Source: Lactobacillus crispatus
Lineage (GTDB): Bacteria > Bacillota > Bacilli > Lactobacillales > Lactobacillaceae
Assembly: GCF_018987235.1 (NCBI RefSeq)
Contig: NZ_CP072197.1
Coordinates: 1,798,001-1,862,000 of the forward strand
Direction of reading: 5' to 3'
Length of the DNA: 64,000 bases
The translations under genes were made by a program, and so were the position numbers. The notes beneath the pieces were generated by a model. That model saw nothing but the letters and a program-made list of their open reading frames with translations, was not told where the DNA came from and made no database searches. Positions 45,560 through 63,053 of the stretch are shown in pieces. Positions within the stretch are counted from its first letter, which is position 1; every line of letters starts with the position of its first letter.

Positions 45560-45592
45560 TATTAAGGAATAAAATATTGCCTCAGATAATTG

Positions 45593-45650
45593 AAAATTTA
45601 GTTTCTTAATGACGAAAAGACGAGAGTTAATTAAGCTCTCGTCTTTTTTA
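45593..45650. repeat. Left copy of a 58-bp direct repeat, contains the pckA terminator
   Basis: The sequence from AAAATTTAGTTTC to the T-run is repeated at 59743-59800 with two differences. It holds a hairpin GACGAGAG / CTCTCGTC plus T6, the terminator of pckA and, in the other direction, of the exporter gene. The two copies bound the lanthipeptide island. Confidence 0.85.
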
Positions 45651-45653
45651 GCG

Positions 45654-47231
45654 TTAATCATTTTCCCATGTTATTACATGATCAAACATAGCTTTTGTAG
45701 TTTTATCCAAGTTATGTGCAATGAATAATATAGTCTTATTCGTTTTAAGAATTTGAGAAATTATTCTAGATGACCCAGCCTGATCAATTGCACTAGTTCC
45801 TTCATCAATTAATAAAATTTTACTATTATGAATTTCTGCTCTAGCTAATATAATTTTTTGTCTTTGACCACCTGAAATATTATTTTGGTCCAAATTAATT
45901 TCTGTATTTAGACCCATAGGAAATTTTTCTAAATCATCTTTTAATTGTACTTTTTTTACTACTTCTTGAGCATCATTAACTAGCGTAGAATCAAACATAG
46001 TTATATTATTCATAACAGTTGTAGGAAAAAGAATTGGATACTGTGGTAAATAGCCAATTTTACTGAAATCTGGATTTATTTCTTTACCTTTTTGATTAAA
46101 GTATACAACTTTACCAGTATCAGGTTGTAATTCTCCTAAAATTATTTTAAATAATGTAGATTTACCTATGCCACTTTTCCCAGTTAATAATATTTTTTCT
46201 CCTTTTTGAATCTTGAAATTAGGAAATCTTATTTTCTTATTGTCTTTAAAGGTAATTGCTAAATTCTCAACCGAAAATGCTACTGGAGTTTTACCTTGAT
46301 TGTTAGATGCGTTAGCTACACTTTTTCTAACTTGTAATATTTGCTCATTAATTTTAGTTGTACTTTTAATTCGTCCCGTAAAATTTGATACTGCCATTAA
46401 AGAGCCGAACAAAAACCAATTAAAATTACTAATACTTGAAATTAAACCAAACTGAGTAATTTTCTTAATAACTAAATAACCTGTCAGAATTAAAATTAAC
46501 ATATCCCCTAACGAATAGACTACTTTATTTAAAAAATCCAAGTTTGAATCTACAATTTGATTTTTTTTAATCGCTTTTTCAGGCTGAGTAGATGCTCTCG
46601 AAAGAACGTCAAATAACTTAGCACCAGCCATAAATCGCCTGATTTCGGAAATTCCAACAAGCCAATAACCTATTTTTTTAAGATATTGGCGATTAGCAGT
46701 AGAGATATTCTGACCTGCCTTTTCTAATTTTTCCTCTAATATCTTAGGCATTAAAATTTGAATAAATGCAACTACTGCAGATAAAACACCAATGCTCCAA
46801 TGAAAGCTTAGTAAGGAAAATAAAACACCAATTGCAACTGTTGAATTATAGAAAATTTGTAGCCATGAATTAGCATAATTTTCTTTAACTAAGGATAAAT
46901 CATTAATCATTTGATTTTGCATTAAAGCAATATTGCTTGTCGTTTCAAAATAATGATTAGATAACTCCTGACGAACTTTATGATTTAATTCTTCTACCTG
47001 CTTGGACCATATATATCGTGGGTAACATCCAAAGAAATAAGCTGTAATTAACATAAGTGTCTGAATTAAAATCATATAGAGAAAAAGATTTAAATTCTTA
47101 TTTTTTATTGCATCAAACTGCCATGTTAATGCATAAGAAGATATTATTGTAACTGAAGCATTAAATATACATAAAATGATGACAAAAATAAAACGAATTG
47201 GATTAATTTTATATAAATCATATATTGTCAT
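45654..47231 (-). CDS. ABC exporter half (membrane + ATPase), lanthipeptide locus
   Basis: A 525-residue type IV ABC half-transporter: six N-terminal membrane segments and a C-terminal ATPase with Walker A GKSGIGKST, signature ISGGQRQKIILARA and Walker B ILLIDEGTSAID. No peptidase C39 domain, so it does not cleave a leader. Start at 47231 follows AAAGGTAGTGACG. It overlaps the previous exporter gene and probably pairs with it as a heterodimer to export the modified peptide (LanT role) or give immunity. It is the last gene of the island and looks intact, though its partner is broken. Confidence 0.85.
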   Translation of the reverse strand: MTIYDLYKINPIRFIFVIILCIFNASVTIISSYALTWQFDAIKNKNLNLFLYMILIQTLMLITAYFFGCYPRYIWSKQVEELNHKVRQELSNHYFETTSNIALMQNQMINDLSLVKENYANSWLQIFYNSTVAIGVLFSLLSFHWSIGVLSAVVAFIQILMPKILEEKLEKAGQNISTANRQYLKKIGYWLVGISEIRRFMAGAKLFDVLSRASTQPEKAIKKNQIVDSNLDFLNKVVYSLGDMLILILTGYLVIKKITQFGLISSISNFNWFLFGSLMAVSNFTGRIKSTTKINEQILQVRKSVANASNNQGKTPVAFSVENLAITFKDNKKIRFPNFKIQKGEKILLTGKSGIGKSTLFKIILGELQPDTGKVVYFNQKGKEINPDFSKIGYLPQYPILFPTTVMNNITMFDSTLVNDAQEVVKKVQLKDDLEKFPMGLNTEINLDQNNISGGQRQKIILARAEIHNSKILLIDEGTSAIDQAGSSRIISQILKTNKTILFIAHNLDKTTKAMFDHVITWEND

Positions 47232-48802
47232 TTTCGTCACTACCTTTCTTGAAAAGGTGAATTTCTCTATCAAATGTTGCTTTCTGCTCTGGAGTTAAAT
47301 TATGTGCAATCATAATAATTGTTGATGGTAATTCTGATATTACTTTTAGAATTTTAGTTGTTGCTATAGTATCAATTGCACTTGTAGGTTCATCCAAAAA
47401 GATTATACTTTTAGGATCAATTATTTCTCTTGCTAAAACTATCTTTTGTTTTTGCCCACCAGAGAGGACAATATTATCAGGCTTAATCACAGATTCAATT
47501 TCTTTAACAGAAAGATCTAGATCTACTTTTTCTAGAATTTTATCAACTTCACTATTCAAGCGAGCATTAAACATAGTAATATTATTTTTTATACTGCTAG
47601 GAAAAAGTGTTACATCTTGTGCAATATAACCAATCCGATCAAAATCAGGAATAATATCTTGATTTTCACTATTGCGATATTGAATCTCACCTTCACTTGG
47701 TTTTTCTATACCTAGTAATAATTTGATAAACGTAGATTTTCCACAACCACTTACACCTGTAAGTAATATATGCTCTCCTTTTTTTATACAAATATCAGGA
47801 TACTCAATCTTATCTCCATCAGTAAATTTCTTAACTAAATTGATTGATCTAATTAACTTTACTTTATCAGGATCCTTTTTATCCGTCGGTTCAGGCTGTA
47901 TCTTAGTCAAATTAGTTATTTTACTTCTTAAATCATAGCTAGAATTTAACAGATTAATATTATTAGAGAAGTCCCATAATGAGTTGAAAATATCATTAGC
48001 AAAATAACTTGCTGTTACAATTGCACCAAATTTTATCTTGCCTTCAAAGTACAGTATTCCAGCTATTAATGGCACTATCACACGTCCCATAACATCTACT
48101 ATTCCTTGAATAAATTGAGAAAAAGTAATAATGCGCATTTTATTTATTTCGCTATCTTCCAATTTACTTGATGAGGTAGCAATAACTCTAGGAAATATTT
48201 TCTTAGCATGATATCTTTTTAATTCACCAAGTCCCGATCCCCATTTTGCAATTGTATTAAGAAATCTATTGTTGGCAACAGAGACCCTATTTGTAGCATT
48301 AATATTTAACTTTTTCAGATATTTAGGTAATAAAATTGATATAAAACCAATCACTAGAGTTGAAAATACTAAAATCGGTGCTAAAGTAAACAACGTACCT
48401 ACCATTAAGAAAATATCTAGCAAATCACACCAGAAATAAAATATATTAGTATAATAATTATCGTCTATCAGTTGTTAAGTTAGTTTCCATTTTTGCTAAG
48501 TCATGTTCATTTTTTCGGTAAAATGAATATACTATCTTTTCTCTATAACTATGAAAAAGATCTTGCGTCTGATTTACAAATAAAATCCTTCCATAATTAT
48601 AAACTCCATTAGATAAGCCTACCAATACAAAATGCATGATGCTTAATTTTAAGAATAAATACCAATTATTATCTAAGATGGAATTCATTTGAGGATCAAT
48701 TATATAAATGCTTAATGTTGATATAGATTGTGAAAATAATAGAATTATACTAATAATAAACGCCCGTATTCTATTTATTTTTAGCCAAGCTATAAAATTC
48801 AT
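47218..48802 (-). pseudogene. ABC exporter half, frameshifted
   Basis: The first frame (48802-48458) gives membrane segments and ends METNLTTDRR then stop; the next frame continues at LIDDNYYTNIFYFWCDLLDI and ends with a full ATPase (GVSGCGKST, LSGGQKQKIVLAREI, IIFLDEPTSAID). The paralogue at 45654-47231 reads NQMINDLSLVKENY at the same place, so a small deletion (net change not a multiple of 3) between CTGAT-like repeats near 48460 is likely. A good GGAGGG ribosome site precedes the ATG. Without this half the exporter pair is probably inactive. Confidence 0.85.
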
Positions 48803-48803
48803 T

Positions 48804-50345
48804 CTATCCCTCCAATTCTTCTATCTTTCTTTTTAATGCTTTAATCTCATTAATTGATACATCTTCATCTTGAATCAGTTGACTCAATCTAAATTTCATT
48901 AATTGCAGATCGTTGTTAAATTTTGGTTGCTCATCTCTTACATAAAACTCATTAATAAGTTGATTATTTTGAATTTTTAAAGTTTTAAAATTCAAATTAT
49001 TGACAAAACTTTGATCATGCGAAACTAATATTAAAGCAAACGGATACTTCTTTACAAACAATTCTAAAGCTTTAATAGAATTTATATCTAGAAAATTAGT
49101 TGGCTCATCTAATACCAGGAAATTATAATCTCCCAATAAAATCTGAGCTAATTTATAACAAATTAATTCTCCTCCACTCAAAGTACTAATTTTATTAGAC
49201 ATTACTCTAGTTAAATGCAAATCACCTAAAAGCTGCATTGTTGTCGTATTATCAAAAATACTTTGCTTTTGAATTTCAGATATTAATGTATTATCATCTT
49301 TAGCTTTTGAAGATATATTTTGACTAAAATATCCGATTTTAGCTTTAGAACTTCTCCAAGAATCTAATTTTTTTTCAACCAATTGTGCTAAAAAAACAGA
49401 CTTCCCACTACCATTTTCACCAAATAGAACTAATTTATCACCATTAGCAATTTTGATTTCATTATTAATTTGAAACAGCCTCTTACCTTTAATACTAATT
49501 TCCTGCTTATTAATTCTCACCAAACTTTCTTTCTGATTTAAGGATTCATCTTTAATAAAATTCTTTAAAGTAATAGGATGATATATTTTTGGCTTTTTTA
49601 AATTTTGGCTTTTTTCAACAGCTCTATTTTCTAACTGTTTGCTAACTCGAAATAGCCTCTTTTCTATTCCACTACTATCCTTTATTTTCCAATCTGATTG
49701 CGAAATATTTTTCTTCTTCTTAGTAGCGTGTAGTGCACGTTCCCTATATATATATTGTGCTCGTCTTAATTTTTTTATCTCTCTATTTTCTTCTATATAT
49801 ACTCTTTCTTTTTCCTTTTCTTCTTGCCTTACTTTTTTCTGATATTGAGAATAGCTTCCTTTAAAAACTCTAATATTTTTATCCTTGATATCCCAAATAA
49901 CATTAACTACCTTATTTAAAAAGTCCCTATCATGACTAACTATTATCATAGATTTATGTACTTTATTTAACTCACTAACCAACCATTTTTGCTGATTAAT
50001 ATCTAAATTAGAGGTAGGCTCATCCAGTAATAATAATGAGTCAGGAAACATTTTTAATTGAATCAATGCATTGATAATGCTAGCTTTTTCTTGCTCTCCT
50101 CCACTTTTTTCACTATATGAAATTATTTGTGGAACCATAATGAGCTTACAATTTTTTATAATATTACCTGAAACTGTAGCTAGATCTTTTTCTCCCATTA
50201 AAATTCTTAGAAAACTAGTCTTACCTACCCCATTATTACCAATAAGACCTATTTTCTGATCGTATTGTACATTTATGTTAACATTCTTTAGTAATACTTT
50301 ATCTGAGTAGGCTAATTTAAAATTACTTAATCTTATAAGTTCCAT
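48804..50345 (-). CDS. ABC-F family ATPase in the lanthipeptide locus
   Basis: A 513-residue soluble protein with two ATPase domains and no membrane part. Domain 1: GLIGNNGVGKTSF, weak signature KSGGEQEKA, LLLLDEPTSNLD. Domain 2: VLFGENGSGKSVF, LSGGELICYKLAQ, FLVLDEPTNFLD. The linker is long and Arg/Lys rich (KKLRRAQYIYRERALHATKK), as in ABC-F proteins that protect ribosomes (Msr/Vga/Lsa type). Start at 50345 after AGGTGA. It sits between lanC and the exporters; no LanFEG is present. It could protect the host if the product hits the ribosome, or be regulatory; both are guesses. Confidence 0.82.
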   Translation of the reverse strand: MELIRLSNFKLAYSDKVLLKNVNINVQYDQKIGLIGNNGVGKTSFLRILMGEKDLATVSGNIIKNCKLIMVPQIISYSEKSGGEQEKASIINALIQLKMFPDSLLLLDEPTSNLDINQQKWLVSELNKVHKSMIIVSHDRDFLNKVVNVIWDIKDKNIRVFKGSYSQYQKKVRQEEKEKERVYIEENREIKKLRRAQYIYRERALHATKKKKNISQSDWKIKDSSGIEKRLFRVSKQLENRAVEKSQNLKKPKIYHPITLKNFIKDESLNQKESLVRINKQEISIKGKRLFQINNEIKIANGDKLVLFGENGSGKSVFLAQLVEKKLDSWRSSKAKIGYFSQNISSKAKDDNTLISEIQKQSIFDNTTTMQLLGDLHLTRVMSNKISTLSGGELICYKLAQILLGDYNFLVLDEPTNFLDINSIKALELFVKKYPFALILVSHDQSFVNNLNFKTLKIQNNQLINEFYVRDEQPKFNNDLQLMKFRLSQLIQDEDVSINEIKALKRKIEELEG

Positions 50346-50905
50346 CTTAATATTCACCTATTTTCTCTAATACAGTGCTAGCATTTTTAACCAGTTATCA
50401 TTATTTTCATACTTTCTGTTAATTAATGTTAATACTACACCTGTAGACCCAGTCAAAAAGCCTATATCATCTTGAAATATTTCTTTAGATCCTAATTTAA
50501 ATGGAGTTGGATAATCATAATTTCTAAACATAAAATCATAGTCATAATCAGCAAGCTCCATGATTTTACTTGTTATCTTATCTTCAAAATATTTTAAATT
50601 TGCATTATGCATCTTTCGATTTATATTTTCAACACATAATAGCAATCCCGAAAATCCATGGCAAATTGTAGCTGAATTTAAATCTAACTTTTTAGTATCT
50701 ATCTTCGTTAATGTTAGTATCCCTTTCTCTGCATTTTTTTGAGTTTTACTATCTTTTAGTAAACTTGCACTATCATATAATGCATTAGCAATTCCTGGAG
50801 ACCCATAACACCAACTTGCTCTAGGGAATTCATCATAACTATTAATGTCGTTTTTTCCTTTTCTTGTTGGCCACCAAAGCTTCTCATTTAAAACTATATT
50901 ATTAT

Positions 50906-51567
50906 ACGCGTGGTGCTAGTTAAATCGTTCTAGACAATATGCCATATTATAAGCTAAAATAGCTATTTCTAGCCGCTGTTGAAAGCCTACTGGACTTCTT
51001 GCTCGATTATTCTCAGCGTTGTAATAACTAAGCAAAGAAAAGTCGCTTTCAATGCTTCTTCTAATTGCCATCATCGCTTACTATTGCGTGGACCTTGAAG
51101 CCATAATAATAGACTTTCTCGGTTGCTTTATAACCAATATCAGCTACGCCCCGAAAGATCTTGACACGATAATTGCGAACAGGCTGGGAAACTATCAATA
51201 ATCAAAAATTCTCCAGCTGTCTTTACTTCTTGATTCCAAGCCTGACGGATACAACGAATTAGAGGCAAGAGCATTCGAGCTCGACGGTTAAAGCGAGAAT
51301 GAGATAAGCCAACGAAGAATTTACAGAATCTTCGTTGAGATTCAATTCCAATTTCAGTTTGCCAAATGAGCATCGCTAAGATAGAACTATCAGGAAGCTT
51401 GGTCTGATCAACATTTTTACGATGTTTAAGTCCATCAGGCGCATAAAGCTTATACAGCGAGCGACAAATCACATTTAACCGATTAAAACTAACTTGTAAA
51501 TGGTGAGAAAAACGCTTAAGCTTGAGATAGTTCAATTAGATCAGACTCTTTTCTATTTAAATTACTT
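50906..51567 (-). mobile_element. IS982-family element, degenerate copy A
   Basis: Starts with the same terminal inverted repeat as copy B (ACGCGTGGTGCTAG...) but is a diverged relative. About 220 bp are deleted near 51075, the transposase frame is shifted after IIDSFP, and the right end is missing, replaced by copy B. Its left end carries target duplication ATTATTAT at 50898-50905. Confidence 0.85.
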
Positions 51568-52532
51568 ACGCGTGGTGCTAGTTAAATCGTTCTAGACAAT
51601 AAGCCAAATTATAAGCTAAAATTGCAATTTCCAACCGGCTTTGAAAGCCTATCAGACTACGTGCTCGATTGTTCTCGGCATTGTAATAGGTCAGAAGCGA
51701 AAAGTCGCTTTCAATTGTTCTGCGAATAGCCATCAATTGATGATCATTGTGCTTTTTAGCTCCTGTCATATTTTTACGATATGGTGTCCAAAGTTCATAA
51801 CCCATTTGTTTTAGCTGTTGATGCAGTTCTTTGCCTAAATAGCCTTCGTCGCCAAGAAGATAGTAATTAGATGGATGTGCATTTTCCATCAGTTCAACTG
51901 TCTCCTTGGCATCATGAACTGATGCTTTTGTTACGACATAATCAAGAATGTAACCGTCATCGCTAACAATGGCATGAACTTTGAAACCATAGAAGTAAAT
52001 TTTCTTGGTGGCCTTATAACCAATGTTGGCATAACCGCGAAAAATTTTAGCACGATAGTTGCGAATTGGTTGGCAAACAGGTACCGGAAAGCTGTCAATG
52101 ATCAAGAAATGTCCATTCAGGTCAACCTTTTTATTCATTTCTTGCCGTATCTGATAAATCAATTGCAATAGCTGACGTGAACGCCGATTAAAACGTGAGT
52201 GTGATAAACAATTGAAACATTCACAGAATCTTCTTTGTGATTCAATTCCTGTCTTAGCTTGCCAGATAAGTAAAGCCAAAATCAGACTGTCCGTAGTTTT
52301 AATTTGATCAATATTTCGCCGATGAGTAAACTCAGCCGGTGCATACAAACGATACCAGTGCCGACAAATTATCACTAAATCTTTAAAACTAACTTGTAAA
52401 TGGTGGCTAAAACGCTTAAGCTTAAGGCAGTTCAATCAGATCAGACTCTTTTCTATTATTACTATTTACAAGTCGAGTCTAACAAGATTGGACTTTTTTA
52501 TTAACTAAAACGATTTAACTAGCACCACGCGT
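51568..52532 (-). mobile_element. IS982-family element, intact copy B
   Basis: A 965-bp element with ends ACGCGTGGTGCTAGTTAAAT and its inverse at 52513-52532. The right end abuts ATTATTAT (52533-52540), the partner of the duplication at the left end of copy A. So copies A and B together occupy one original insertion site in lanC. Confidence 0.88.
51578..52435 (-). CDS. IS982-family DDE transposase
   Basis: A 285-residue transposase with a complete DDE triad: FLIIDSFPVPVC (D), YYLLGDEGYLG (D) and AIRRTIESDFSLL (E), plus N-terminal HLQVSFKDLVIICRHWYRLY. Of the IS982-type frames in the window this is the only intact one. It is very similar in part to the broken frame of copy A (51140-51535). 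Confidence 0.93.
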   Translation of the reverse strand: MNCLKLKRFSHHLQVSFKDLVIICRHWYRLYAPAEFTHRRNIDQIKTTDSLILALLIWQAKTGIESQRRFCECFNCLSHSRFNRRSRQLLQLIYQIRQEMNKKVDLNGHFLIIDSFPVPVCQPIRNYRAKIFRGYANIGYKATKKIYFYGFKVHAIVSDDGYILDYVVTKASVHDAKETVELMENAHPSNYYLLGDEGYLGKELHQQLKQMGYELWTPYRKNMTGAKKHNDHQLMAIRRTIESDFSLLTYYNAENNRARSLIGFQSRLEIAILAYNLAYCLERFN

Positions 52533-53111
52533 ATTATTATCGTTATATAGGCTTAATAATTTACTTATAGCTTTTTTAGAATTAGCTGAACCCATTCTTT
52601 TGCGTTCTATTTCAGTTAATGCAGAAAGAGGTCCAGCAAGTCCGTGAGATAAACTAAAATTAACTGCTCCACTTGGATACATTTTAGACAAATATGGTAA
52701 AATCATTTTTTCAGATTTTATACAAAATGATCCACTATTAATAAAGTTCGTTAAATCATCCACCAAATAATTGAATATTAATTTATTATCTTGGTAAATA
52801 TCTGTATTAAGCAAATATAAAATTATAGCTGTATATCCTTCAATTAAATCATAATCTGCTTCAACCAAATGACAAGTTAGAGAGCGCTTCAATTTCTTTC
52901 TATATTTTTGAATAACGCTGATATATAATTTGTTAAACTTATACTTAAGACTTTGTATTTTCTTATTTTTATCATCCGAATAATTTATTGCATATCCAAT
53001 ACCTGTTAAACCATTAAAGACACTCATAGTTACATTTTTCTTGGGAAAGTATTTTATTATTTGCTCTAAATAATATAACTTTAGATCAATATATTGTTCA
53101 CCTGTAATTTT

Positions 53112-54483
53112 GAGACTGTAAAATAGTTTGTGTAAGGATGAATGATTCCTTAAATTTATTTCTTTAAACATTAGAAAAAGGAGTTCCTTTCTCGTATGAT
53201 TGGTTTGAACAAAAAAACACATACAGAAAGAAGAACTCCTTCATGAATGATTTTACCAAAGATTTTGCTCAAGCTCTATTCAATCCAGACAAAATAAATG
53301 ATTTATTGCGCAAAGAGCTACAACAGGCTGTTAATAACTTGCTAGAAGCTGAGTTGACTGCCTTTCTAGGCTATGATCCCTATGCCAGAAATGGCTGGAA
53401 TACTGGCAATTCTAGAAATGGTGCTTATTTCCGCAAGGTTGATACCCAGTTTGGACCAATTGAAGTGCAAGTGCCTCGAGACCGCAACGGTCAGTTTCAT
53501 CAGCACACGCTGCCTGACTACAAGCAGCACTCTGATGTTTTGGAAAGCACGATTATCAAGCTATACTCCAAAGGCGTAACTACCAGAGAAATCGCTGACT
53601 TGATTGAGAAAATGTATGGCAGTCATTATAGTCCAGCTCAAGTATCAAATATTTCCAAGCAGATGCTCCCCAAGATTGAGGCTTATCACAAGCGCAAGCT
53701 AAGCGACAAGTTTTTCTGTGTCTATTTGGATGCGACATACCTTCCTTTGCGCCGAGAAACGTTTGAGCGTGAAGCAGTATATATTGCCATTGGCATTAAA
53801 CCTAATGGACATAAGGAAGTCATTGACTACTGCATTGCTCCTAGTGAGAACATTGAAGTTTGGACAGAGATGCTTCAAAACATGAAGTCCAGAGGCTTGA
53901 AGCAAGTTGAGCTTTTTCTTTCTGATGGTGTTGTTGGCATGAAAACAGCCTTGGCCAGGACTTATCCTAAAGCTCATTTTCAACGCTGCCTGGTTCATGT
54001 CATGCGCAATATCTGCGCTAAAGTACGCGTCGACGATCGTGAAAAGATCATGAACGAATTCAAGCAGATACATCAACAGACAAGCAAAAAAGAAGCTGCA
54101 GCTGTCTTGCACAAATTCTATGCCAAATGGAATAAAGCTTATAGCCATGTCATCAAAGGTTTGAAGGAAATTGAGCCCGATCTGCTAGTCTTCTACAATT
54201 ATCCCAAACAAATCAGAGCTTCAATTTATTCAACCAATATGATTGAATCCTTTAACAACGTCATCAAGCGTAAAGCTAAGCCTAAGGCAGAATTTCCAAC
54301 TGAACAGTCGCTTGATGCATTTATTGGCATCCAGGCAATGAGCTACAATGACCGTTATTTCAATCGAATTCATAAAGGCTTTGGTCAGGTTCAGGACACC
54401 TTAGAATCCTACTTTGATTAAATAAATAATTAAAAAATCAATTTACGAGAAAGATCTATTTACACAAAAGATTTGACAGTTTC
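53112..54483 (+). mobile_element. IS256-family element (IS1201-like), copy 1, no target duplication
   Basis: A 1,372-bp element with 24-bp imperfect ends GAGACTGTAAAATAGTTTGT.. and GAAACTGTCAAATCTTTTGT.. (the latter inverted at 54483). The flanking octamers GTAATTTT (53104-53111) and TGGATCTC (54484-54491) do not match, unlike copy 2. It joins the lanB 3' part to the lanC 5' part in the wrong place: a deletion removed what lay between. Opposite in orientation to copy 2. Confidence 0.9.
53243..54421 (+). CDS. IS256-family transposase (copy 1)
   Basis: A 392-residue mutator-type transposase: N-terminal LNPDKINDL-like start FNPDKINDLLRKELQQAVNN, then VYLDATYLPLRRE (D), LFLSDGVVGMKTAL (D) and STNMIESFNNVIKRK (E). 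Its sequence is the same as that of copy 2 at 56263-57441. The frame is intact. Confidence 0.95.
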   Translation: MNDFTKDFAQALFNPDKINDLLRKELQQAVNNLLEAELTAFLGYDPYARNGWNTGNSRNGAYFRKVDTQFGPIEVQVPRDRNGQFHQHTLPDYKQHSDVLESTIIKLYSKGVTTREIADLIEKMYGSHYSPAQVSNISKQMLPKIEAYHKRKLSDKFFCVYLDATYLPLRRETFEREAVYIAIGIKPNGHKEVIDYCIAPSENIEVWTEMLQNMKSRGLKQVELFLSDGVVGMKTALARTYPKAHFQRCLVHVMRNICAKVRVDDREKIMNEFKQIHQQTSKKEAAAVLHKFYAKWNKAYSHVIKGLKEIEPDLLVFYNYPKQIRASIYSTNMIESFNNVIKRKAKPKAEFPTEQSLDAFIGIQAMSYNDRYFNRIHKGFGQVQDTLESYFD

Positions 54484-56200
54484 TGGATCTCTAAATACTA
54501 AATAATGAAACAACTTTATATACTTTTCATCATGCATCTTTTTGTATAAACTAGACAATTTATATGTAATTAATGTATTTAGATCATTCCTAGAACAGTA
54601 TACTTTTAAATATAACCAATCGTCTCCTAAAATAAATTTTCTTTCTCTACTATTAAAAGCGACATCTAATTCTCTAGTTATTAATGGAACGGATGTTGTA
54701 TTTTTTAAATTGTTATCAGTAAGAGAATAAACATATTCTGCCAATTTATTACTATTTTTCAAAATTGGCTCATAAATTGAAACATTAGTTTTGCTCAGTA
54801 TTTCCCTAATCAATTCATTTCTATGAATTTTTAAATTTAAATTCAATAATAATCTATTATCATTTCTTTCTAAAAATACTAACTTAGGTACTTCCCATCT
54901 TTCCATAAAGGCATCAAATTTTGCTGTTAACTCTGACTTAGAAGCGAAATTGCCTAATGTATACTTATTAAAATTCCATCTTAAAGGTGTCAAGATAATA
55001 TTCTTGTAATAAAATGCAGGTATCCTTGGAAAATTATCAAAGTTTTCCAGTAATCTAATAATATAAAAAGGATTACTTTCCTTATTATGAGACGCTTCAA
55101 TAAGAAAACTAGCAATATATGATAAGTACTCACCATTTTTATAATTTATCATAGACGTAGCAGAGAAAAACAATCTCTTTTTCGTCACTCTTGATTTGAA
55201 ATAAAAATAATAACTCTCTCCATCCCTCTCTACACCAACAAGAATATCTTTTATATCTATGCTATTCTTATCTGGACCTGTCGTACCTACATTAACAACA
55301 GAATTATTGGTATTAGTTAGCATCACATTTAAAACACGTTTATTTTTAGGTGTATCAACAACTTCTATCTCTTCTGGCATATGACTAATAGGATTACTTC
55401 GATTAAACATGTAAGTAAATCGTCCAAAAGTTTTGCCACTTTTATCACTCCCTGAATTTGGAATGATCATTGTATTCAACGCGCTATTATCAGCACAAAA
55501 TATTGTTTTAACATATAATTCTAAACTAGTAGGAAAGTTATTTATATGTTCTTGATCTGACAAATCTGGTAAATCACAATTTTCAATATCACAGTATTTA
55601 TTTTTACTTACAATACTCTTTATAATTGCTTCTTTTAACAAAATACTTTGTTTAGTATTCGAAGTATCTGAGATACTAAATATCTTAGAATATGGAGAAC
55701 CTAATCCTTTATCAGGATCCAGTAAAACTAATAATGGGACTTCAGTGTAAGGTCCATATTTATCAAGAAAAGCCTTCGTATAATTTTCTAAATAATCAGA
55801 TTTTTTATAATCAGGTGTTACCTTTTTCAAAAAAGTCACTAAATTTGATAAATTCTTAGGTTTTTCTTTAATCGACAAAACCTGATCTTCTTTTTGAAAA
55901 TCAACATGAATATAATTTACAGATTTTTGAATCATACTCATCTTTAAAACTATTTCTTTTAAAATTTCGATACCATTTCCTAATTCTGTCTTATGATATA
56001 ATCTCATTTTCTTTCTAATATCAACTAATAACTCATAAGTTGATCTTTCCTTAGGAATATTTTTAATATTCTTAACTAAAGTATTAAAATTATCTTTATT
56101 TACATTGCTCAACGAAATATTAGTTAATAAAAAATCATTAACCACTAACATTTTAATAACTCTTAAAATACTAGTTTTATCATCAATATGCAGAGAATAT

Positions 56201-57572
56201 GAAACTGTCAAATCTTTTGTGTAAATAGATCTTTCTCGTAAATTGATTTTTTAATTATTTATTTAATCAAAGTAGGATTCTAAGGTGTCCTGAACCTGAC
56301 CAAAGCCTTTATGAATTCGATTGAAATAACGGTCATTGTAGCTCATTGCCTGGATGCCAATAAATGCATCAAGCGACTGTTCAGTTGGAAATTCTGCCTT
56401 AGGCTTAGCTTTACGCTTGATGACGTTGTTAAAGGATTCAATCATATTGGTTGAATAAATTGAAGCTCTGATTTGTTTGGGATAATTGTAGAAGACTAGC
56501 AGATCGGGCTCAATTTCCTTCAAACCTTTGATGACATGGCTATAAGCTTTATTCCATTTGGCATAGAATTTGTGCAAGACAGCTGCAGCTTCTTTTTTGC
56601 TTGTCTGTTGATGTATCTGCTTGAATTCGTTCATGATCTTTTCACGATCGTCGACGCGTACTTTAGCGCAGATATTGCGCATGACATGAACCAGGCAGCG
56701 TTGAAAATGAGCTTTAGGATAAGTCCTGGCCAAGGCTGTTTTCATGCCAACAACACCATCAGAAAGAAAAAGCTCAACTTGCTTCAAGCCTCTGGACTTC
56801 ATGTTTTGAAGCATCTCTGTCCAAACTTCAATGTTCTCACTAGGAGCAATGCAGTAGTCAATGACTTCCTTATGTCCATTAGGTTTAATGCCAATGGCAA
56901 TATATACTGCTTCACGCTCAAACGTTTCTCGGCGCAAAGGAAGGTATGTCGCATCCAAATAGACACAGAAAAACTTGTCGCTTAGCTTGCGCTTGTGATA
57001 AGCCTCAATCTTGGGGAGCATCTGCTTGGAAATATTTGATACTTGAGCTGGACTATAATGACTGCCATACATTTTCTCAATCAAGTCAGCGATTTCTCTG
57101 GTAGTTACGCCTTTGGAGTATAGCTTGATAATCGTGCTTTCCAAAACATCAGAGTGCTGCTTGTAGTCAGGCAGCGTGTGCTGATGAAACTGACCGTTGC
57201 GGTCTCGAGGCACTTGCACTTCAATTGGTCCAAACTGGGTATCAACCTTGCGGAAATAAGCACCATTTCTAGAATTGCCAGTATTCCAGCCATTTCTGGC
57301 ATAGGGATCATAGCCTAGAAAGGCAGTCAACTCAGCTTCTAGCAAGTTATTAACAGCCTGTTGTAGCTCTTTGCGCAATAAATCATTTATTTTGTCTGGA
57401 TTGAATAGAGCTTGAGCAAAATCTTTGGTAAAATCATTCATGAAGGAGTTCTTCTTTCTGTATGTGTTTTTTTGTTCAAACCAATCATACGAGAAAGGAA
57501 CTCCTTTTTCTAATGTTTAAAGAAATAAATTTAAGGAATCATTCATCCTTACACAAACTATTTTACAGTCTC
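56201..57572 (-). mobile_element. IS256-family element (IS1201-like), copy 2, with 8-bp target duplication
   Basis: The same 1,372-bp element as copy 1, inverted. GAGAATAT flanks it on both sides (56193-56200 and 57573-57580), a classic 8-bp IS256-family duplication. Removing it restores the lanB frame, so this was a simple insertion into a whole gene. Confidence 0.93.
56263..57441 (-). CDS. IS256-family transposase (copy 2)
   Basis: Identical 392-residue transposase to copy 1 with the DDE residues intact. Identity between the copies points to recent transposition. Confidence 0.95.
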   Translation of the reverse strand: MNDFTKDFAQALFNPDKINDLLRKELQQAVNNLLEAELTAFLGYDPYARNGWNTGNSRNGAYFRKVDTQFGPIEVQVPRDRNGQFHQHTLPDYKQHSDVLESTIIKLYSKGVTTREIADLIEKMYGSHYSPAQVSNISKQMLPKIEAYHKRKLSDKFFCVYLDATYLPLRRETFEREAVYIAIGIKPNGHKEVIDYCIAPSENIEVWTEMLQNMKSRGLKQVELFLSDGVVGMKTALARTYPKAHFQRCLVHVMRNICAKVRVDDREKIMNEFKQIHQQTSKKEAAAVLHKFYAKWNKAYSHVIKGLKEIEPDLLVFYNYPKQIRASIYSTNMIESFNNVIKRKAKPKAEFPTEQSLDAFIGIQAMSYNDRYFNRIHKGFGQVQDTLESYFD

Positions 57573-58077
57573 GAGAATATTGCAAATTACTAATTAACTT
57601 CTTTACAGAAATATTATTTTGTGTAAATTTATTTATTGCTTTTGTAATCGATGTGATTTTTAATTTTCTCTGCAGATTCTTTCTTTCATCATCTTTTACA
57701 AAGAGCAATTTAAAATATGTCTTATTACATACCACAACATTATTCCATTTTACATACAAATAATTAAGATCTTCCAAGTCAATCTCAATTTTTCGAATTA
57801 CTTTACTAAGCCATTCCATATCAGGATAAATATGCTTAAATAATTTGTTATCACAATTCTTTTCATTTTTAGAAAATTTTCCTAAAGATACCATAGCATC
57901 TAATCCATACGGTGTTGCTCTTGTACAGATTCGATTAAAGTAATTGCTCAATGAATTTATCAAATGTCTGTATCTTTTGCCGTCAGGATTTAACTCAGTT
58001 ATTTTCATTAATTGATAATATAGTTTTTTATTATTTACAAATAAAATTTCTTTAAATTGGTTATCTTTTAAAAGACC

Positions 58078-59240
58078 CCGGATTTAAAATTGAAGTGCAA
58101 CACCAAGTGTTAAACAAAAAGGCCATGAAGACCTAAACTTGAAGTGACGAAAAATCAAGAAAGGAAGATCTTCATGACCAATTCAAATTCTAGCATTTCT
58201 AAGCACTATCATCAATTAACCAGCGTACAACGTGGACAAATTCAAGCAATGCTGGATTCCGGCATAACTTCCCGTACTGTTATCGCTCAAGAAGTCGGCT
58301 GCCATAAGTCGACAATCAGTCGCGAAATCAAACGCGGAAGCGTCCTGCAAAGAGACAGCAGCTATTTATTGTATGAGCACTATTACGCTGATACTGCACA
58401 GCTTTATTATGAGAAGCGTCGCAAAAACTGCTATCAGCGCAATCCATTGAAGCATTATGCTGTCTTTTTGAGAATGCTCTCCAGACGCTTCAAAGCTAAA
58501 TTTGATGCCACCAGCATCGATGAATTCGTTGGTGAATTCAAAAGGACTATGCCAGGCTACCCTTGTCCCAGCACACCAACTGTCTATCGCTATATTGATC
58601 AGGGCTTGCTGGACATAAGCAATATTGATCTGCCTATGAAGCTCAAAAGACGCAGGAACAAGCGTCATCACGGCCAGAGCGGTCATGCTTTGCACAAGAA
58701 GAATCTTGGCAATTCCATTGAACAGCGTCCTAAAGAGATTGAAGACAGAAAAACGCCGCTGCACTGGGAAGGAGATCTGGTTAAAGGCGTCAGACGCAAG
58801 AATCAGCCTGCTTTAATGACTTTGACCGAAAGAACCACACGCTTTGAAGTAGTTATCAAGATTCCTGACTATCGGGCAAGCACATGCCAAAGGCTGCTTC
58901 AAAATGAGATTGACAGACATCCTGCCTGGTTTAAATCGATCACGTTTGACAATGGCTCTGAGTTTGCGGATATGACCAAGATCAAAGGCTGCCAGATCTA
59001 CTTCGCCCACCCATATTCTCCATGGGAAAGAGGCACCAATGAGAACTGCAATGGACTTCTGCGTCAATTCTTCCCTAAAGGCAAAAGCATGAAAGATAAG
59101 TCAGCTGCTTATGTTCAACAGGCAACTGATGCCATTAACCGCAAACATCGTCGAATCCTTCAATATCACACAGCAGAAGAACTCTTCAAGCAATATATTT
59201 CCTCATAGCCTAACTGTTGCACTTAATTTGACAATTCAGG
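58078..59240 (+). mobile_element. IS30-family element inserted in lanB
   Basis: A 1,163-bp element with related ends CCGGATTTAAAATTGAAGTG.. and CCTGAATTGTCAAATTAAGT.. (inverted). Both sides carry TCTTTTAAAAGACC (58064-58077 and 59241-59254), a palindromic target; the 14-bp duplication is long for IS30, but excising it restores the lanB frame exactly. Confidence 0.9.
58174..59208 (+). CDS. IS30-family transposase
   Basis: A 344-residue transposase: HTH in the N-terminal part (LTSVQRGQIQAMLDSGITSR, VIAQEVGCHKSTISREIKRG) and DDE residues in LHWEGDLVKG (D), TFDNGSEFAD (D) and PWERGTNENCNGLLRQFF (E). Start set at 58174 after GGAAGATC; the longer frame begins in the terminal repeat region. Intact. 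Confidence 0.93.
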   Translation: MTNSNSSISKHYHQLTSVQRGQIQAMLDSGITSRTVIAQEVGCHKSTISREIKRGSVLQRDSSYLLYEHYYADTAQLYYEKRRKNCYQRNPLKHYAVFLRMLSRRFKAKFDATSIDEFVGEFKRTMPGYPCPSTPTVYRYIDQGLLDISNIDLPMKLKRRRNKRHHGQSGHALHKKNLGNSIEQRPKEIEDRKTPLHWEGDLVKGVRRKNQPALMTLTERTTRFEVVIKIPDYRASTCQRLLQNEIDRHPAWFKSITFDNGSEFADMTKIKGCQIYFAHPYSPWERGTNENCNGLLRQFFPKGKSMKDKSAAYVQQATDAINRKHRRILQYHTAEELFKQYISS

Positions 59241-59381
59241 TCTTTTAAAAGACCAATTAAATTCTGATCTACATCTTCATTTTTTGAAAAAATAGAATTA
59301 TACTTTTTCAAATCATATACTGGTTCTCTAATCATAAATTTGTCTTCTAATTTATAAAAAGTCATATAATTCCCCTCTTTC

Positions 59382-59419
59382 AAAAAATCAATATGTAGCC
59401 AAATGCATATTGATTTTTT
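59382..59419 (-). terminator. Attenuator between lanA and lanB
   Basis: AAAAAATCAATATG / CATATTGATTTTTT stem with an 11-base loop, 4 bp after the lanA stop codon and just before the lanB ribosome site. A partial terminator here gives excess precursor over enzymes, as in many lanthipeptide operons. Confidence 0.8.
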
Positions 59420-59423
59420 CTAA

Positions 59424-59555
59424 CTAATTATGACCACAACATGCTGAGAATGTTGCACCTGAACCTCTACGTGGTCCTGTTAAGTCCTCAACATCTTCAA
59501 GATTGATATCTTCAACTTCTACGGTCAAATCTAAAGAAATGTTTTTCTCATCCAT
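59424..59555 (-). CDS. lanA: Class I lanthipeptide precursor (LanA), 43 residues
   Basis: ATG after AAGGAAAAAAAC. Leader: MDEKNISLDLTVEVEDINLE plus DVEDLTGPR, acidic, with an ISLDL element like the FNLD box recognised by LanB. A Pro-Arg pair (GPR-R) before the core matches LanP-type cleavage. Core GSGATFSACCGHN (13 residues; or with one more Arg) has 2 Ser, 1 Thr and 2 adjacent Cys, enough for two thioether rings. It is far shorter than nisin or epidermin cores and does not match any lanthipeptide I know. Intact, with its own promoter, but the maturation genes are broken. Confidence 0.85.
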   Translation of the reverse strand: MDEKNISLDLTVEVEDINLEDVEDLTGPRRGSGATFSACCGHN

Positions 59556-59574
59556 GTTTTTTTCCTTAACCTTT

Positions 59575-59634
59575 CTAATCCAAATCCTTCATTTGGATTA
59601 GATTAAATATACTACCACAAAATTATATTTGCAA
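59575..59634 (-). promoter_or_regulatory. lanA promoter with 5' hairpin or operator
   Basis: Minus strand TTGCAA (59629-59634), 17 bp, TATATT (59606-59611). Just inside the RNA start lies a perfect 11-bp inverted repeat CTAATCCAAAT / ATTTGGATTAG with a 5-base loop (59575-59601). It may stabilise the transcript end or be an operator, for example for the Rgg-like regulator nearby. Confidence 0.7.
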
Positions 59635-59742
59635 TAGTTTTTTTATTTTTTGTTAATTTTAAATTAATAAAGCAATATTTTGTAGTAAACAAATCTCTTA
59701 GTTTATCCCTCTTATATGGGATTAAAGTATTTTGCATCAATT

Positions 59743-59800
59743 AAAATTTAGTTTCTTAATGACGAAAAGACGAGAGTTGATTAAGCTCCCGTCTTTTTTA
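59743..59800. repeat. Right copy of the 58-bp direct repeat, contains the nudix terminator
   Basis: 56 of 58 bases match the left copy at 45593-45650. Here the T-run end supplies the TAA stop of the NUDIX gene. The hairpin change (CTCCCGTC) leaves a G-U pair when read on the minus strand, so the terminator still works for nudix. Confidence 0.85.
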
Positions 59801-60211
59801 TTGTTCAATGTAATTCTGTGCTTTCGTCAAAACAGCCATCTTCCCATGCACAGTTAGATACTGTTTTGCTTCAGCTAAGCTAACCCATTTGCTTGCTAAA
59901 ATTTCTTCCTTTTGTGTTTTTACTTCTTGACCTGCAACATAGCTAGCGACAAAATAAACTACTGTCTTAGCCTTATCTGCTGTTAACTGATATTCAGTTT
60001 GGGCTTTAAAGGCAAAATCAAAATTCGGCTTTAGGCCAACTTCCTCAAAAACTTCTCTTTTAGCAGCTTCTTCAGCATTCTCATCATTTTCCAAATGCCC
60101 TTTTGGAAAGCCCCAATTATAATTTACGACGCTCTGCACGATCAAATATTCCAGTTCGCCGTCTCTACGCTTTCTGTAAATAACTGCACCTGCAGAATGT
60201 TCCATCTTCAT
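59798..60211 (-). CDS. NUDIX hydrolase, Ap4A hydrolase-like
   Basis: A 137-residue protein with a complete NUDIX box: GHLENDENAEEAAKREVFEE followed by VGL. MKMEHSAGAVIYRKRRDGEL at the start is that of asymmetric bis(5'-nucleosyl)-tetraphosphatases in lactic acid bacteria. ATG 60211 is preferred over the distal upstream start because homologous proteins begin there. It would clean up Ap4A or related dinucleotides. Its stop codon lies in the right-hand repeat. Confidence 0.88.
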   Translation of the reverse strand: MKMEHSAGAVIYRKRRDGELEYLIVQSVVNYNWGFPKGHLENDENAEEAAKREVFEEVGLKPNFDFAFKAQTEYQLTADKAKTVVYFVASYVAGQEVKTQKEEILASKWVSLAEAKQYLTVHGKMAVLTKAQNYIEQ

Positions 60212-60330
60212 TTTTGTCACCCAACCTTTATATTGAACAATTATTAAATATTTATTAATGCAGGTCAAGCGATTGGGATCAAAAATGACTGTCATAAATT
60301 GAGATATCCTGATTTTACTAATTATTTATC

Positions 60331-61542
60331 TTAGAGCATCTTCAATCTAAAAATTAAAAATACTGAAATACTGCTTGCTAAAATACAAAGTGCAAAAATC
60401 CAGAAAGCAATATATAAATTAAAATTTAATAACCTTGAAAATACTGGAATCATTATCAAATTTGAAAAGGCAACCATAGCATCTCTTAAACTAGAAATTT
60501 TTCCTTTCATTGTTTCATCAAAAGATGTATGTAACTGTGTTTGAAATAAAGATTGCGATGCACCATTAAATATTCCAATAATAAAGATAAAGATTGTAGC
60601 TATATAGATTGAACTGGTTAGAGTTAGCCCGATAAAAGCCAAAGCCTGGAAGAATAAACCAGACCAAGAAACTTCAGAGAAATTAAATCTTTCAAATAGT
60701 AAATAAATGATCGTAAAATTTAACATTGCACCTAGTGCAAAAAATCCATCTAAAGCTGTTAGATAAACGGAATTCTTTAATATAACTGTTGCATATTTTA
60801 TCTCCATCAAATTGATAAAAGCAACAATTACTGAATCGATTGAAGAAAAAAATACTAATAAAAGTAACTTTTTACTTATAAATAAAGCTCTTAGTAGCTT
60901 GAACCATTCAAAATACATTTTCTTTAACTTATTATCTGAAACTTTAATTTGAACTGGATGTTCCTTATTAAATTTTAAAAAGATAGTACAAATAAATGAA
61001 GTAAAAAAAGTAAGTGCATCTATCAATAAAGCAGGAATTGTTAAATTAAATGCAATTAAAGGTGTAGCAATAGCCACACCTAATAATTGACCACTTTGAT
61101 TTAATGAACTGCGTAACCCATTTAATGGAAGTAATCCCAAACTTCCTCTTTGAATACTAGCAATGATTTTAAAATTAGCAGCTCTAAAAAATGGCACAAT
61201 CAAGTTTAAAATGAGCATTAATATCATTAAAACTACGATTATATTATTTGATAATCTTAAAAAGATAATACCCAAAATAATCATAATTCCGCGTAAACTG
61301 TCTGCAATTTCTGAAATAAATTGTGGCTTTTTAATGTCAGCAATATAACCAGCCAATAAATTTAACATAAAAGATGCTACATTTTGAATAATTAACACTA
61401 ATCCAAAAGCCGAAACCGAACCAGTTTTATCATACAAAATTTTAGAAATTATCAGTGTAAAAATCCCATCACCCAGATTCGACACAAAAGTTCCAAGTAG
61501 ATATAAGTAAACTGAGGATGACGCTAGTTTTAGCTTTTTCAT
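60331..61542 (-). CDS. MFS transporter
   Basis: A 403-residue protein with about 12 membrane segments (YLLGTFVSNLGDGIFTLIIS at the start, SFMLNLLAGYIADIKKPQFI) of the MFS_3 / macrolide-efflux-like type. Start at 61542 follows GGAGGCGG. It is 15 bp downstream of the 88-residue gene, so the two are an operon divergent from an Rgg-like regulator. It may export a peptide or drug. AT-rich. Confidence 0.82.
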   Translation of the reverse strand: MKKLKLASSSVYLYLLGTFVSNLGDGIFTLIISKILYDKTGSVSAFGLVLIIQNVASFMLNLLAGYIADIKKPQFISEIADSLRGIMIILGIIFLRLSNNIIVVLMILMLILNLIVPFFRAANFKIIASIQRGSLGLLPLNGLRSSLNQSGQLLGVAIATPLIAFNLTIPALLIDALTFFTSFICTIFLKFNKEHPVQIKVSDNKLKKMYFEWFKLLRALFISKKLLLLVFFSSIDSVIVAFINLMEIKYATVILKNSVYLTALDGFFALGAMLNFTIIYLLFERFNFSEVSWSGLFFQALAFIGLTLTSSIYIATIFIFIIGIFNGASQSLFQTQLHTSFDETMKGKISSLRDAMVAFSNLIMIPVFSRLLNFNLYIAFWIFALCILASSISVFLIFRLKML

Positions 61543-61557
61543 TAAAACCGCCTCCAT

Positions 61558-61824
61558 CTAAATCGGTGGCTCATCTATAAAATTCAGAACATCTTTAATT
61601 GAAATCAAATTTTTATTTGCTTCAAATGCTCGTCCATGATCCAAAATAGAATTTAAAGTAGCTGCTATAGGCTCAATTGTACTTCTTATCAATTGATTGG
61701 CATAAATAACAATATTTACACCTGTTTGTTCTAATTCTTTTTCGCCAATTTGAGTTGACAAATCTGTCATCAACTTATAAGGTATATCTAAAATTTTATA
61801 TTTGATAATCATTTTTTTATTCAT
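61558..61824 (-). CDS. 88-residue protein divergent from the Rgg-like gene, unknown
   Basis: The product has no signal peptide (KYKILDIPYKLMTDLSTQIG, IRSTIEPIAATLNSILDHGR). No family recognised; it could be a signal-related or immunity protein, but nothing in the sequence proves it. GAGGTC precedes the ATG. Its start codon is only 11 bp from the start codon of the regulator. Confidence 0.6.
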   Translation of the reverse strand: MNKKMIIKYKILDIPYKLMTDLSTQIGEKELEQTGVNIVIYANQLIRSTIEPIAATLNSILDHGRAFEANKNLISIKDVLNFIDEPPI

Positions 61825-61835
61825 GGTAAGACCTC

Positions 61836-62678
61836 ATGTACGGAAAATATTTTAAACAATTAAGAAAAAAACAAGATATTTCTTTAAAGGATGCTGCTGC
61901 AAATGTAATCTCGACTTCTCAATTATCCAGATGGGAAAATGGAAGAAGCAATATATCTTTTGAGACCGTAATCAATCTTTTGGATAATATTCATATTCGA
62001 GCAAATGAATTTATAATGTACTGTAACCTTAATCCAACAAATTCTTTAACTCACAAAATATTTAATGCTTATCAAAGAAAAGGTATTACCGAGCTTAAAC
62101 ATCTAACTTTAAAGCAAATTAAACAAAGTAAAACTAGTAAAAACAGATTTGATTTATTTCTAGCTGTAGCCGCTGCTAATTTCTATTTTGACTTAACCAA
62201 TATTCGTTTAATTTCAAAATTTGATATTTTAAATGTAAAATCAATTTTATCGTCTACTTCATATTGGAATTATTATTACATTAGTGTTTGGGGTAATACC
62301 TTAGCATTCTATGATCCTACATTTAATTTCAAAATCGCTTCAAGAATACTTACTATTTTGAAAAATCAAACGACATTAGAATTTGGTACGGAGTATTACA
62401 CCTGGTGTACAATTTTAAATGCTTTAATTAGAATAATTCCAGAGAAAATTGAACTAGCAAAAAAACTCTCACTCAAAATAAATAAAGTTTCAATTCCCAA
62501 CTCCTTTTTATCTATTCGACTTAAGAAAAGATTTATGGATATATACATAAAATATCAGCTACATGAATCAGATAAAGAAGAATTGAATAAATTTCTTTAC
62601 TCATTAGAAAATTTGCAGTTAATTGATTTAAAGAATGAACTTGAATATTTCTTATCTAACACAAAAATGAGAAATTAG
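61836..62678 (+). CDS. Rgg/GadR/MutR-family transcriptional regulator
   Basis: A 280-residue regulator: N-terminal HTH_3 (YFKQLRKKQDISLKDAAANV, STSQLSRWENGRSNISFETV) and a long all-helical C-terminal part (TPR-like peptide-binding repeats) as in Rgg proteins that sense short pheromones or control bacteriocin genes (MutR). The divergent 88-residue gene and MFS gene are its likely targets; the lanA promoter 2 kb away is another possibility. A ribosome site before the ATG is not obvious. No short pheromone gene was found. Confidence 0.85.
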   Translation: MYGKYFKQLRKKQDISLKDAAANVISTSQLSRWENGRSNISFETVINLLDNIHIRANEFIMYCNLNPTNSLTHKIFNAYQRKGITELKHLTLKQIKQSKTSKNRFDLFLAVAAANFYFDLTNIRLISKFDILNVKSILSSTSYWNYYYISVWGNTLAFYDPTFNFKIASRILTILKNQTTLEFGTEYYTWCTILNALIRIIPEKIELAKKLSLKINKVSIPNSFLSIRLKKRFMDIYIKYQLHESDKEELNKFLYSLENLQLIDLKNELEYFLSNTKMRN

Positions 62679-63053
62679 CCTCCTTCCTTTAATTTTTAAT
62701 TTAAATATACTCTCATATTTCTTTAAAAGTGATATATTTGCATATATGCAAATATTTTTGAATTATTGTTGCCATCTTTTCGATAATATCAACAATAATC
62801 TAATGTCTTGTTGCTAAATACTAATACTAGACACCATGATTAACTTTTTCCTGTACAGGTAATTTTTCACGTGCACAATTATCCTTTACTTATCTCCATA
62901 AAACGCTAATAAAATCAGCAAACATAGACTCTAATAATGACGAGTAGTTTTCTTGACTTCCTTAGTCTAAAATTGAAAAGTATTCCTTAAAAATACTTTT
63001 TCTTACCATGAACGCTTCTCTTAGAAAGCTCCTTCACAGTTAATCGATTACAC
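62679..63053. other. 375-bp AT-rich gap, no gene seen
   Basis: No frame of note, no tRNA, and no repeat array. A short imperfect hairpin (TATTGTTG/CAACAATA near 62765-62800) is visible. Probably decayed DNA after the rgg-like gene. Confidence 0.5.

Follow-up and report, generated by a model that had tools for sequence, protein, structure and literature searches.

The 64,000-nucleotide window of Lactobacillus crispatus DNA analysed here contains a small gene on the minus strand, lanA (59424..59555), identified as an ORF and by homology and alignment, with its ATG at 59555 and a stop codon ending at 59424. Its full product, MDEKNISLDLTVEVEDINLEDVEDLTGPRRGSGATFSACCGHN, is a 43-residue putative precursor, in which a leader of 30 residues (1-30; 10 acidic and 3 basic) with an SLDL motif and a C-terminal PRR is followed by a core of 13 residues, GSGATFSACCGHN, carrying S32, T35, S37, C39 and C40. 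A leader followed by a core with Ser/Thr before Cys is a trait of class I lanthipeptides. The ATG of lanB lies at 59365, leaving a gap of 58 nt. The initial annotation had placed a 43-codon gene directly upstream of lanB, naming no strand, and had described an acidic leader with an ISLDL element, a Pro-Arg site and a short core; all these features are present, on the minus strand.

Between lanA and lanB, folding, shuffling and a palindrome search identified a hairpin followed by a T run (59382..59419, minus strand). Its stem is a perfect, A+T-rich 14 bp, and none of 200 shuffled sequences folded equally well (z -3.4). The underlying palindrome, ATCAATATG-N10-CATATTGAT, is present as a single copy in the 2.24-Mb genome (exact pattern, loop 3-14), and in 1.04 Mb of loci, many of which overlap, ATCAATATG-N(7 or 10)-CATATTGAT was found only right after lanA, in the window, in L. 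helsingborgensis and in genome G400. A different, G+C-rich hairpin occupies the same position in L. taiwanensis. Because a hairpin recurs between lanA and lanB in all three lineages folded, as expected of such an element, it is likely an attenuator favoring the precursor over the enzyme. The attenuator proposed in the initial annotation stands in this way; its companion, a promoter belonging to lanA, fares less well, since the promoter-like TTGCAA-17-TATATT (59606..59634, minus strand; motif scan) is weak and the stretch holds two such sites against 3.5 expected from shuffles. In the 5' region of lanA, a repeat search also turned up a perfect inverted repeat of 12 bp (59574..59602), a possible operator or 5' hairpin, with no second exact copy in the genome and one place with 3 mismatches.

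Downstream of lanA, the genes expected to modify its product are in pieces. Junction analysis places the first lanB piece, of 42 residues, at 59240..59365 (minus strand), followed by an element with approximate ends (58077..59238, plus strand) whose transposase has HTH_38 and rve domains and which we take to be of IS30 type. The second lanB piece (57583..58089, minus strand) matches Lant_dehydr_N and, by tblastn, residues 34-202 of L. helsingborgensis LanB; it is separated from the third (54481..56187, minus strand; LanB residues 208-783), which reaches the start of the C-terminal domain, by a Transposase_mut element (56201..57572, minus strand) with an 8-bp flank duplication, GAGAATAT. A second, inverted copy of the latter element lies at 53112..54483 (plus strand; Transposase_mut, junctions), its flanks are not duplicated, and the sequence there has lost about 210 C-terminal LanB residues together with the initial 55 of LanC; both copies are presumably IS256-type elements. 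The first lanC piece, without a start (52541..53111, minus strand; LANC_like, LanC residues 56-264), belongs to an ORF, 52515-53222, that also includes the end of the element. Within lanC, domain and repeat comparison revealed a DDE_Tnp_1 transposase element with approximate ends (50905..52540), holding also the remains of a second transposase gene, 74-83% alike, and beyond it the second lanC piece retains the WCYG and CHG motifs (50370..50888, minus strand; LanC residues 254-425). Next on the minus strand come a gene for a 513-aa ABC-F protein, open and from sequence comparisons likely an immunity gene (48804..50345), and the two halves of an ABC exporter, both assigned by domain and tblastn comparison: half 1 has a frame change near residue 112 (47218..48802) and half 2 is open (45654..47273). 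In the window, lanA, the ABC-F gene and exporter half 2 are therefore open, and lanB, lanC and exporter half 1 are broken. The lan cluster of this genome is dead and cannot work as it stands.

The cluster is flanked by two copies of a terminator, found by repeat and folding analysis, one on the pckA side (45586..45655) and one on the mutT side (59736..59805), each of 70 bp and 90% identical to one another; the site lies between the convergent pckA and mutT genes. Eight relatives were compared at this site, chosen as the best mutT matches among the 29 other matching genomes of 75, and none of the eight carries lan genes at the terminator. In six (G436, G311, G410, G384, G286 and G398) pckA is joined directly to mutT, and the four of these junctions that were aligned have one terminator copy each. 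The remaining two contain other insertions, an IS3-type transposase pair within the terminator (G368) and a RelB/YafQ-type pair between two terminator copies (G210). Since lan genes are absent from the site in all eight relatives and other insertions occur there, the cluster resembles an island acquired at a site that takes up insertions repeatedly. The terminator as an insertion site is represented by the 14-kb lan island of the window and by L061 1880-2700 and L086 6940-8800, and its duplication accompanies two of the three insertions (lan island, RelB/YafQ pair and IS3-type element). On the far side of mutT, 60286-63053 encodes an MFS transporter, an 88-aa protein and a divergent Rgg-like regulator (Rgg_C below cut-off), all absent from the eight relatives, in which matches skip from mutT to 63.04-63.36 kb; this block is either a second insertion or one loss.

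The precursor itself has relatives outside this broken setting. Compared with 5.8 billion proteins, window lanA gave four matches at E up to 1. Three homologues of 43 residues (E 1.9e-18 to 6.6e-17), one of them named a L. helveticus hypothetical protein, are 86-88% identical to window lanA and have the same core GSGATFSACCGHN; a search with the alignment added a further homologue, P0008, with the core GSGVTASACCGNN, and close homologues as a group are 84-88% identical. Another sequence, P0004, is the same as window lanA through most of the leader and has a frameshift just before the core, which suggests that the core has been lost elsewhere in the lineage too, a sequencing error being possible. 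At the species level, the D-lactate dehydrogenase differs from 2DLD, the L. helveticus enzyme, at 14 of 336 residues, so that a near relative of that species is likely. Distant relatives were reached via searches with lanB. On the L. helsingborgensis plasmid NZ_CP084390.1, the precursor MTNENLDLDLNLNVEDIEMEDASSLFGPRRNTGVTSSGCCMR, with the core NTGVTSSGCCMR, lies 79 nt before a whole lanB; strain Bma5 of the same species has an identical precursor, with unread bases in the lanB of its contig. L. taiwanensis DSM 21401 (L013) and G192 have 40-aa precursors ending NGVTSTGCCNGPSKLQG and SGVTSTGCCNGPSKSQG, respectively, each directly before lanB. Shortness and broken neighbor genes might lead lanA to be regarded as a chance frame, but frame, motif and position are conserved next to intact lanB genes, and such an origin is hardly credible. 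The initial annotation had itself allowed that the frame might not be conserved beside intact lanB; this is contradicted by L. helsingborgensis and L. taiwanensis, where the frame is kept next to whole lanB and lanC genes.

In the alignment of seven precursors, M1, L10, V14, E15, G33, T35, C39 and C40 are invariant, and variation is found at positions 37 (S/T), 34 (A/V), 38 (A/G), 36 (F/A/S) and 32 (S/T/N). The motif G-[AV]-T-x-[ST]-[AG]-C-C is retained while the core otherwise drifts, which is the pattern expected of two thioether rings. The initial annotation had counted three Ser/Thr and two Cys as the ring-forming set: T35, S/T37, C39 and C40 are kept in all seven precursors, and position 32, its third Ser/Thr, is Asn in the L. 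taiwanensis precursor. Because only T35 and S/T37 are kept together with both Cys in 7/7, two rings would be expected, with S32 optional. Dehydration, ring pattern and ring order of the predicted peptide are inferred from these residues. The leader is less uniform, that of L. taiwanensis being without PRR.

A wide distribution of the family was not found among 75 Lactobacillus genomes and 395 genomes of the order searched with the precursor profile A5, which matched five of the former, one through the leader only, and three of the latter, all within Lactobacillus. The first profile, A1, had matched two of 397 genomes of the family, namely the genome studied here and a 13-residue match, L002; as the ORF of L002 has no lanA-type leader, this match was taken as chance and rejected as a relative. 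Among plasmids, no carrier of the window lanA/lanB stretch or of the L. taiwanensis precursor was found, and the L. helsingborgensis precursor matched only its own plasmid. In viral contigs, 288 stretches fitting the pattern included no relative, nor did the 30 stretches from a first scan of genome contigs with a lanB piece. Scanning with a lanB alignment yielded 37 loci. Small ORFs with T.[ST].CC numbered 14 in 54 loci, comprising 11 family precursors, a count that includes repeat loci of four genomes, and three unrelated ORFs (L002, L015 and L034). Other precursors were sought upstream of lanB in eight of the 37 loci and in L008, L049 and L050. At L049 4487-4669, in a genome of the same bacterial family (G283), an epidermin-like precursor ending TSYSLCTPGCAHTGSFNSYCC, with 75 bits against PF02052, lies beside lanB and lanC.

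The enzymes that are broken in the window are whole in relatives. L. helsingborgensis LanB (994 aa) has both Lant_dehydr domains and can be aligned with 9g04 and NisB almost from end to end, and its LanC aligns to NisC across the CYG and CHG motifs. L. taiwanensis encodes LanB (963 aa) and LanC (414 aa) in open frames, and the zinc-site motifs of LanC were recognized by eye. A full LanB dehydratase, with glutamylation and elimination domains, and a separate LanC cyclase with zinc-site motifs are hence found beside the precursor in L. helsingborgensis and L. taiwanensis, whereas the window lacks the former and has the latter in broken form; stops are present in the lanB of G192. Window LanB is 44% identical to that of L. 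helsingborgensis over its 578-aa piece, and P0011, a whole LanB, shares 72-74% identity with the two larger pieces in the window. The order A-B-C-ABC-F-exporter-exporter is common to the window and L. helsingborgensis. The L. helsingborgensis plasmid is annotated with further genes upstream of its lan cluster, at L007 1374-5052, for a ThiF-family adenylyltransferase, a hypothetical protein and an ABC transporter, which are perhaps another peptide pathway.

Taken together, lanA, homologous to precursors found before intact lanB and lanC, very probably encodes a class I lanthipeptide, in which a core of 12-17 residues would carry two thioether rings and would have antibacterial activity. This is considered the best explanation because homologous precursors keep the Thr/Ser/Cys pattern in a drifting core, because lanB follows the precursor immediately in two L. 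helsingborgensis strains, in L. taiwanensis and in G192, and because LanB and LanC are whole in relatives, the gene order is conserved and a hairpin follows lanA in three lineages. Counting against it are the broken cluster of the window, the broken lanB of G192, the lanA relic of G400 and the frameshift of P0004; in addition, inspection by eye recognized neither a protease nor a classical immunity gene (LanI, LanFEG) in the cluster. In the proposed pathway, the acidic leader would be bound by LanB, and T35 and S/T37, as well as S32 where present, would be dehydrated; LanC would then add C39 and C40, most plausibly giving the intertwined rings T35-C39 and S37-C40. For the L. helsingborgensis core released after PRR, the calculated [M+H]+ is 1215.49 in unmodified form, 1179.47 after loss of two waters and 1161.46 after loss of three; for the L. 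taiwanensis core, if cleaved after EA as presumed, it is 1622.73 in unmodified form and 1586.71 after loss of two. The peptide would be secreted by the two-part ABC exporter and its leader cleaved at PRR by a protease encoded outside the cluster, and the hairpin after lanA would keep the lanA transcript above that of lanB. Self-protection would rest on the exporter and probably, in three lineages, on the ABC-F protein as well.

The modified peptide might instead act as a signal, i.e., a ring-closed pheromone or competition cue under Rgg-like regulation, rather than as an antibiotic. The core is very small, and in both L. taiwanensis and G192 lanA is preceded by a gene for an HTH_3 regulator, Rgg-like by eye, and by a 13-residue ORF, MIIVTLPVLPKSN. 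Neither regulator nor ORF was found in the annotated cluster of the window or of L. helsingborgensis, and ABC-F and exporters suit self-protection better, so that a signaling role is regarded as quite unlikely. Situated between lanA and the gene for the HTH regulator, the 13-residue ORF (L005 672-713; L006 541-582) has a ribosome-binding site and may encode a short pheromone sensed by an Rgg-like regulator.

For a lanthipeptide with antibacterial activity, the preferred reading, the ABC-F neighbor raises the question of the target. Against the PDB sequence set, the closest relatives of the window protein are Lmo0919 (E 1.6e-72) and a lincosamide-streptogramin A resistance protein (2e-68), which we take to be of Vga(A) type. 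Lmo0919 and Vga(A)-type proteins are ribosome-protection factors. The window ABC-F shares with them two ATP-binding domains and a linker, has its nucleotide-binding motifs in place and is kin to solved ribosome-bound factors; it scores 341.1 bits against the NCBIfam model for ribosomal protection-like ABC-F proteins, below the cut-off of 380, and falls below the cut-offs for named families too. Unlike Lmo0919 and Vga(A), it is encoded inside a lanthipeptide cluster. In L. helsingborgensis an ABC-F gene, whose product is 44.8% identical to that of the window, likewise follows lanC. A third instance is found in G400 (L119 9676-11518, also L118), where a lanA relic, MISKRLNMHLNLNVKDIDIEDALSFASLCEPINLTRLSYRIR, its leader kept and its core gone, was detected through the leader by the precursor search (E 0.0018); the palindrome is as in the window, and directly behind the relic lies an ABC-F gene about 66% identical to that of L. 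helsingborgensis, with a frameshift in the linker. No lanB or lanC match was found in 13.6 kb of this locus, the contig ending about 2 kb upstream. From its sequence, the G400 locus is the remains of a lost lan cluster.

With ABC-F in or next to lan genes in three lineages, it can be conceived that the two-ringed mini-peptide enters cells and blocks the large ribosomal subunit, ABC-F being a dedicated immunity protein kept after biosynthetic decay. This is nonetheless held to be unlikely, because ABC-F also occurs as a standalone gene, the cluster copies are not grouped in the tree, the linker tip is common, and L. taiwanensis and G192 lack such a protein. Alternatively, and with a probability that falls somewhat short of even, ABC-F is a resident drug-protection gene that came to lie in the cluster by chance and plays no part in immunity to the lanA peptide. 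Of 75 Lactobacillus genomes, 26, among them that of the window, carry ABC-F genes up to 50% identical; in the nine such loci examined, no LanB or LanC match was found next to the gene, and L. taiwanensis and G192 have the peptide without ABC-F. The two cluster copies were grouped in 3% of bootstrap trees, a single origin still being compatible with the tree, and a linker tip special to cluster ABC-Fs was considered and rejected, since the tip is common to standalone copies. What speaks against a chance resident is that lanC is followed by ABC-F in two lineages whose copies share only 45% identity, that ABC-F lies behind the lanA relic in G400, and that it is open in the window beside a broken lanB and a broken lanC.

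An ordinary lantibiotic binding lipid II through a minimal ring would be another possibility, as T-x-S-x-C-C resembles the T-x-[ST]-x-[DE]-C of the mersacidin group. The Thr-to-Cys spacing of the lanA core equals that of the mersacidin-type ring; however, the acidic residue of the motif is replaced by Cys, and rings A and B of nisin and epidermin are absent, which makes this target rather improbable.

Published work touches this family at several points. Class I lanthipeptides have been predicted in L. helsingborgensis and L. melliventris (Lang et al., 2023; PMC10673953); the L. helsingborgensis cluster is very likely the same as L007, and precursor, core and ABC-F are not described in the parts of that article consulted. 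A lanthipeptide cluster in L. taiwanensis CLG01 (PMC7916312) and class I lanthipeptides in L. kefiranofaciens strains from koumiss and sour milk (PMC10137885) concern the same or sister species and are possibly of the same family as lanA, the passages seen giving no precursor sequence. In a RODEO survey (PMC7268733), the string 'Lactobacill' is absent from the main text, and the supplement may list the precursor. In literature on ABC-F with lanthipeptides or lantibiotics, as far as it was seen, nothing stood out on ABC-F immunity to a lanthipeptide, and no title on a ribosome-targeting lanthipeptide was among the matches listed. In a review of translation-targeting RiPPs (PMC7136475), the parts seen bring up lanthipeptides only in connection with shared LanB enzymes and in the title of a reference. 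Three core strings were found in no main text of the searched literature, and the literature and profile searches returned no described lanthipeptide with the lanA core, so that the exact match which the initial annotation had kept in view did not appear.

The claim that the peptide is unlike the nisin and epidermin groups holds as well: kinship of the precursor with them was rejected, as four family precursors (window, P0005, L. taiwanensis and P0008) have no PF02052 match, whereas gallidermin-/nisin-like controls score 75.1 bits (L049) and 26.6 bits (L012) against a cut-off of 21. None of the four matches a Pfam model or reaches the cut-off of any NCBIfam model, their best NCBIfam score being 13.6 bits (E 0.053; cut-off 40) for a class II lanthipeptide model; the positive controls apply to Pfam only. 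The searches and alignments support lanA as a new short-core variant of class I lanthipeptides, with modification and activity as predictions. If so, a class I lanthipeptide can be reduced to little beyond two rings, its 12-17 residues being fewer than the 22-34 usual for class I cores; this size would permit chemical synthesis and NMR, intact clusters are at hand in two named lactobacilli, and the linked ABC-F would be a directly testable handle on a non-lipid II target. With nisin and epidermin (gallidermin), the lanA family shares the leader-core layout and the pairing of LanB with LanC, NisB and NisC being the PDB relatives. Epidermin has overlapping C-terminal rings, and a similar arrangement is conceivable for the lanA peptide; the family differs from both in its core of 12-17 residues and in having no SxSLCTPGC rings.
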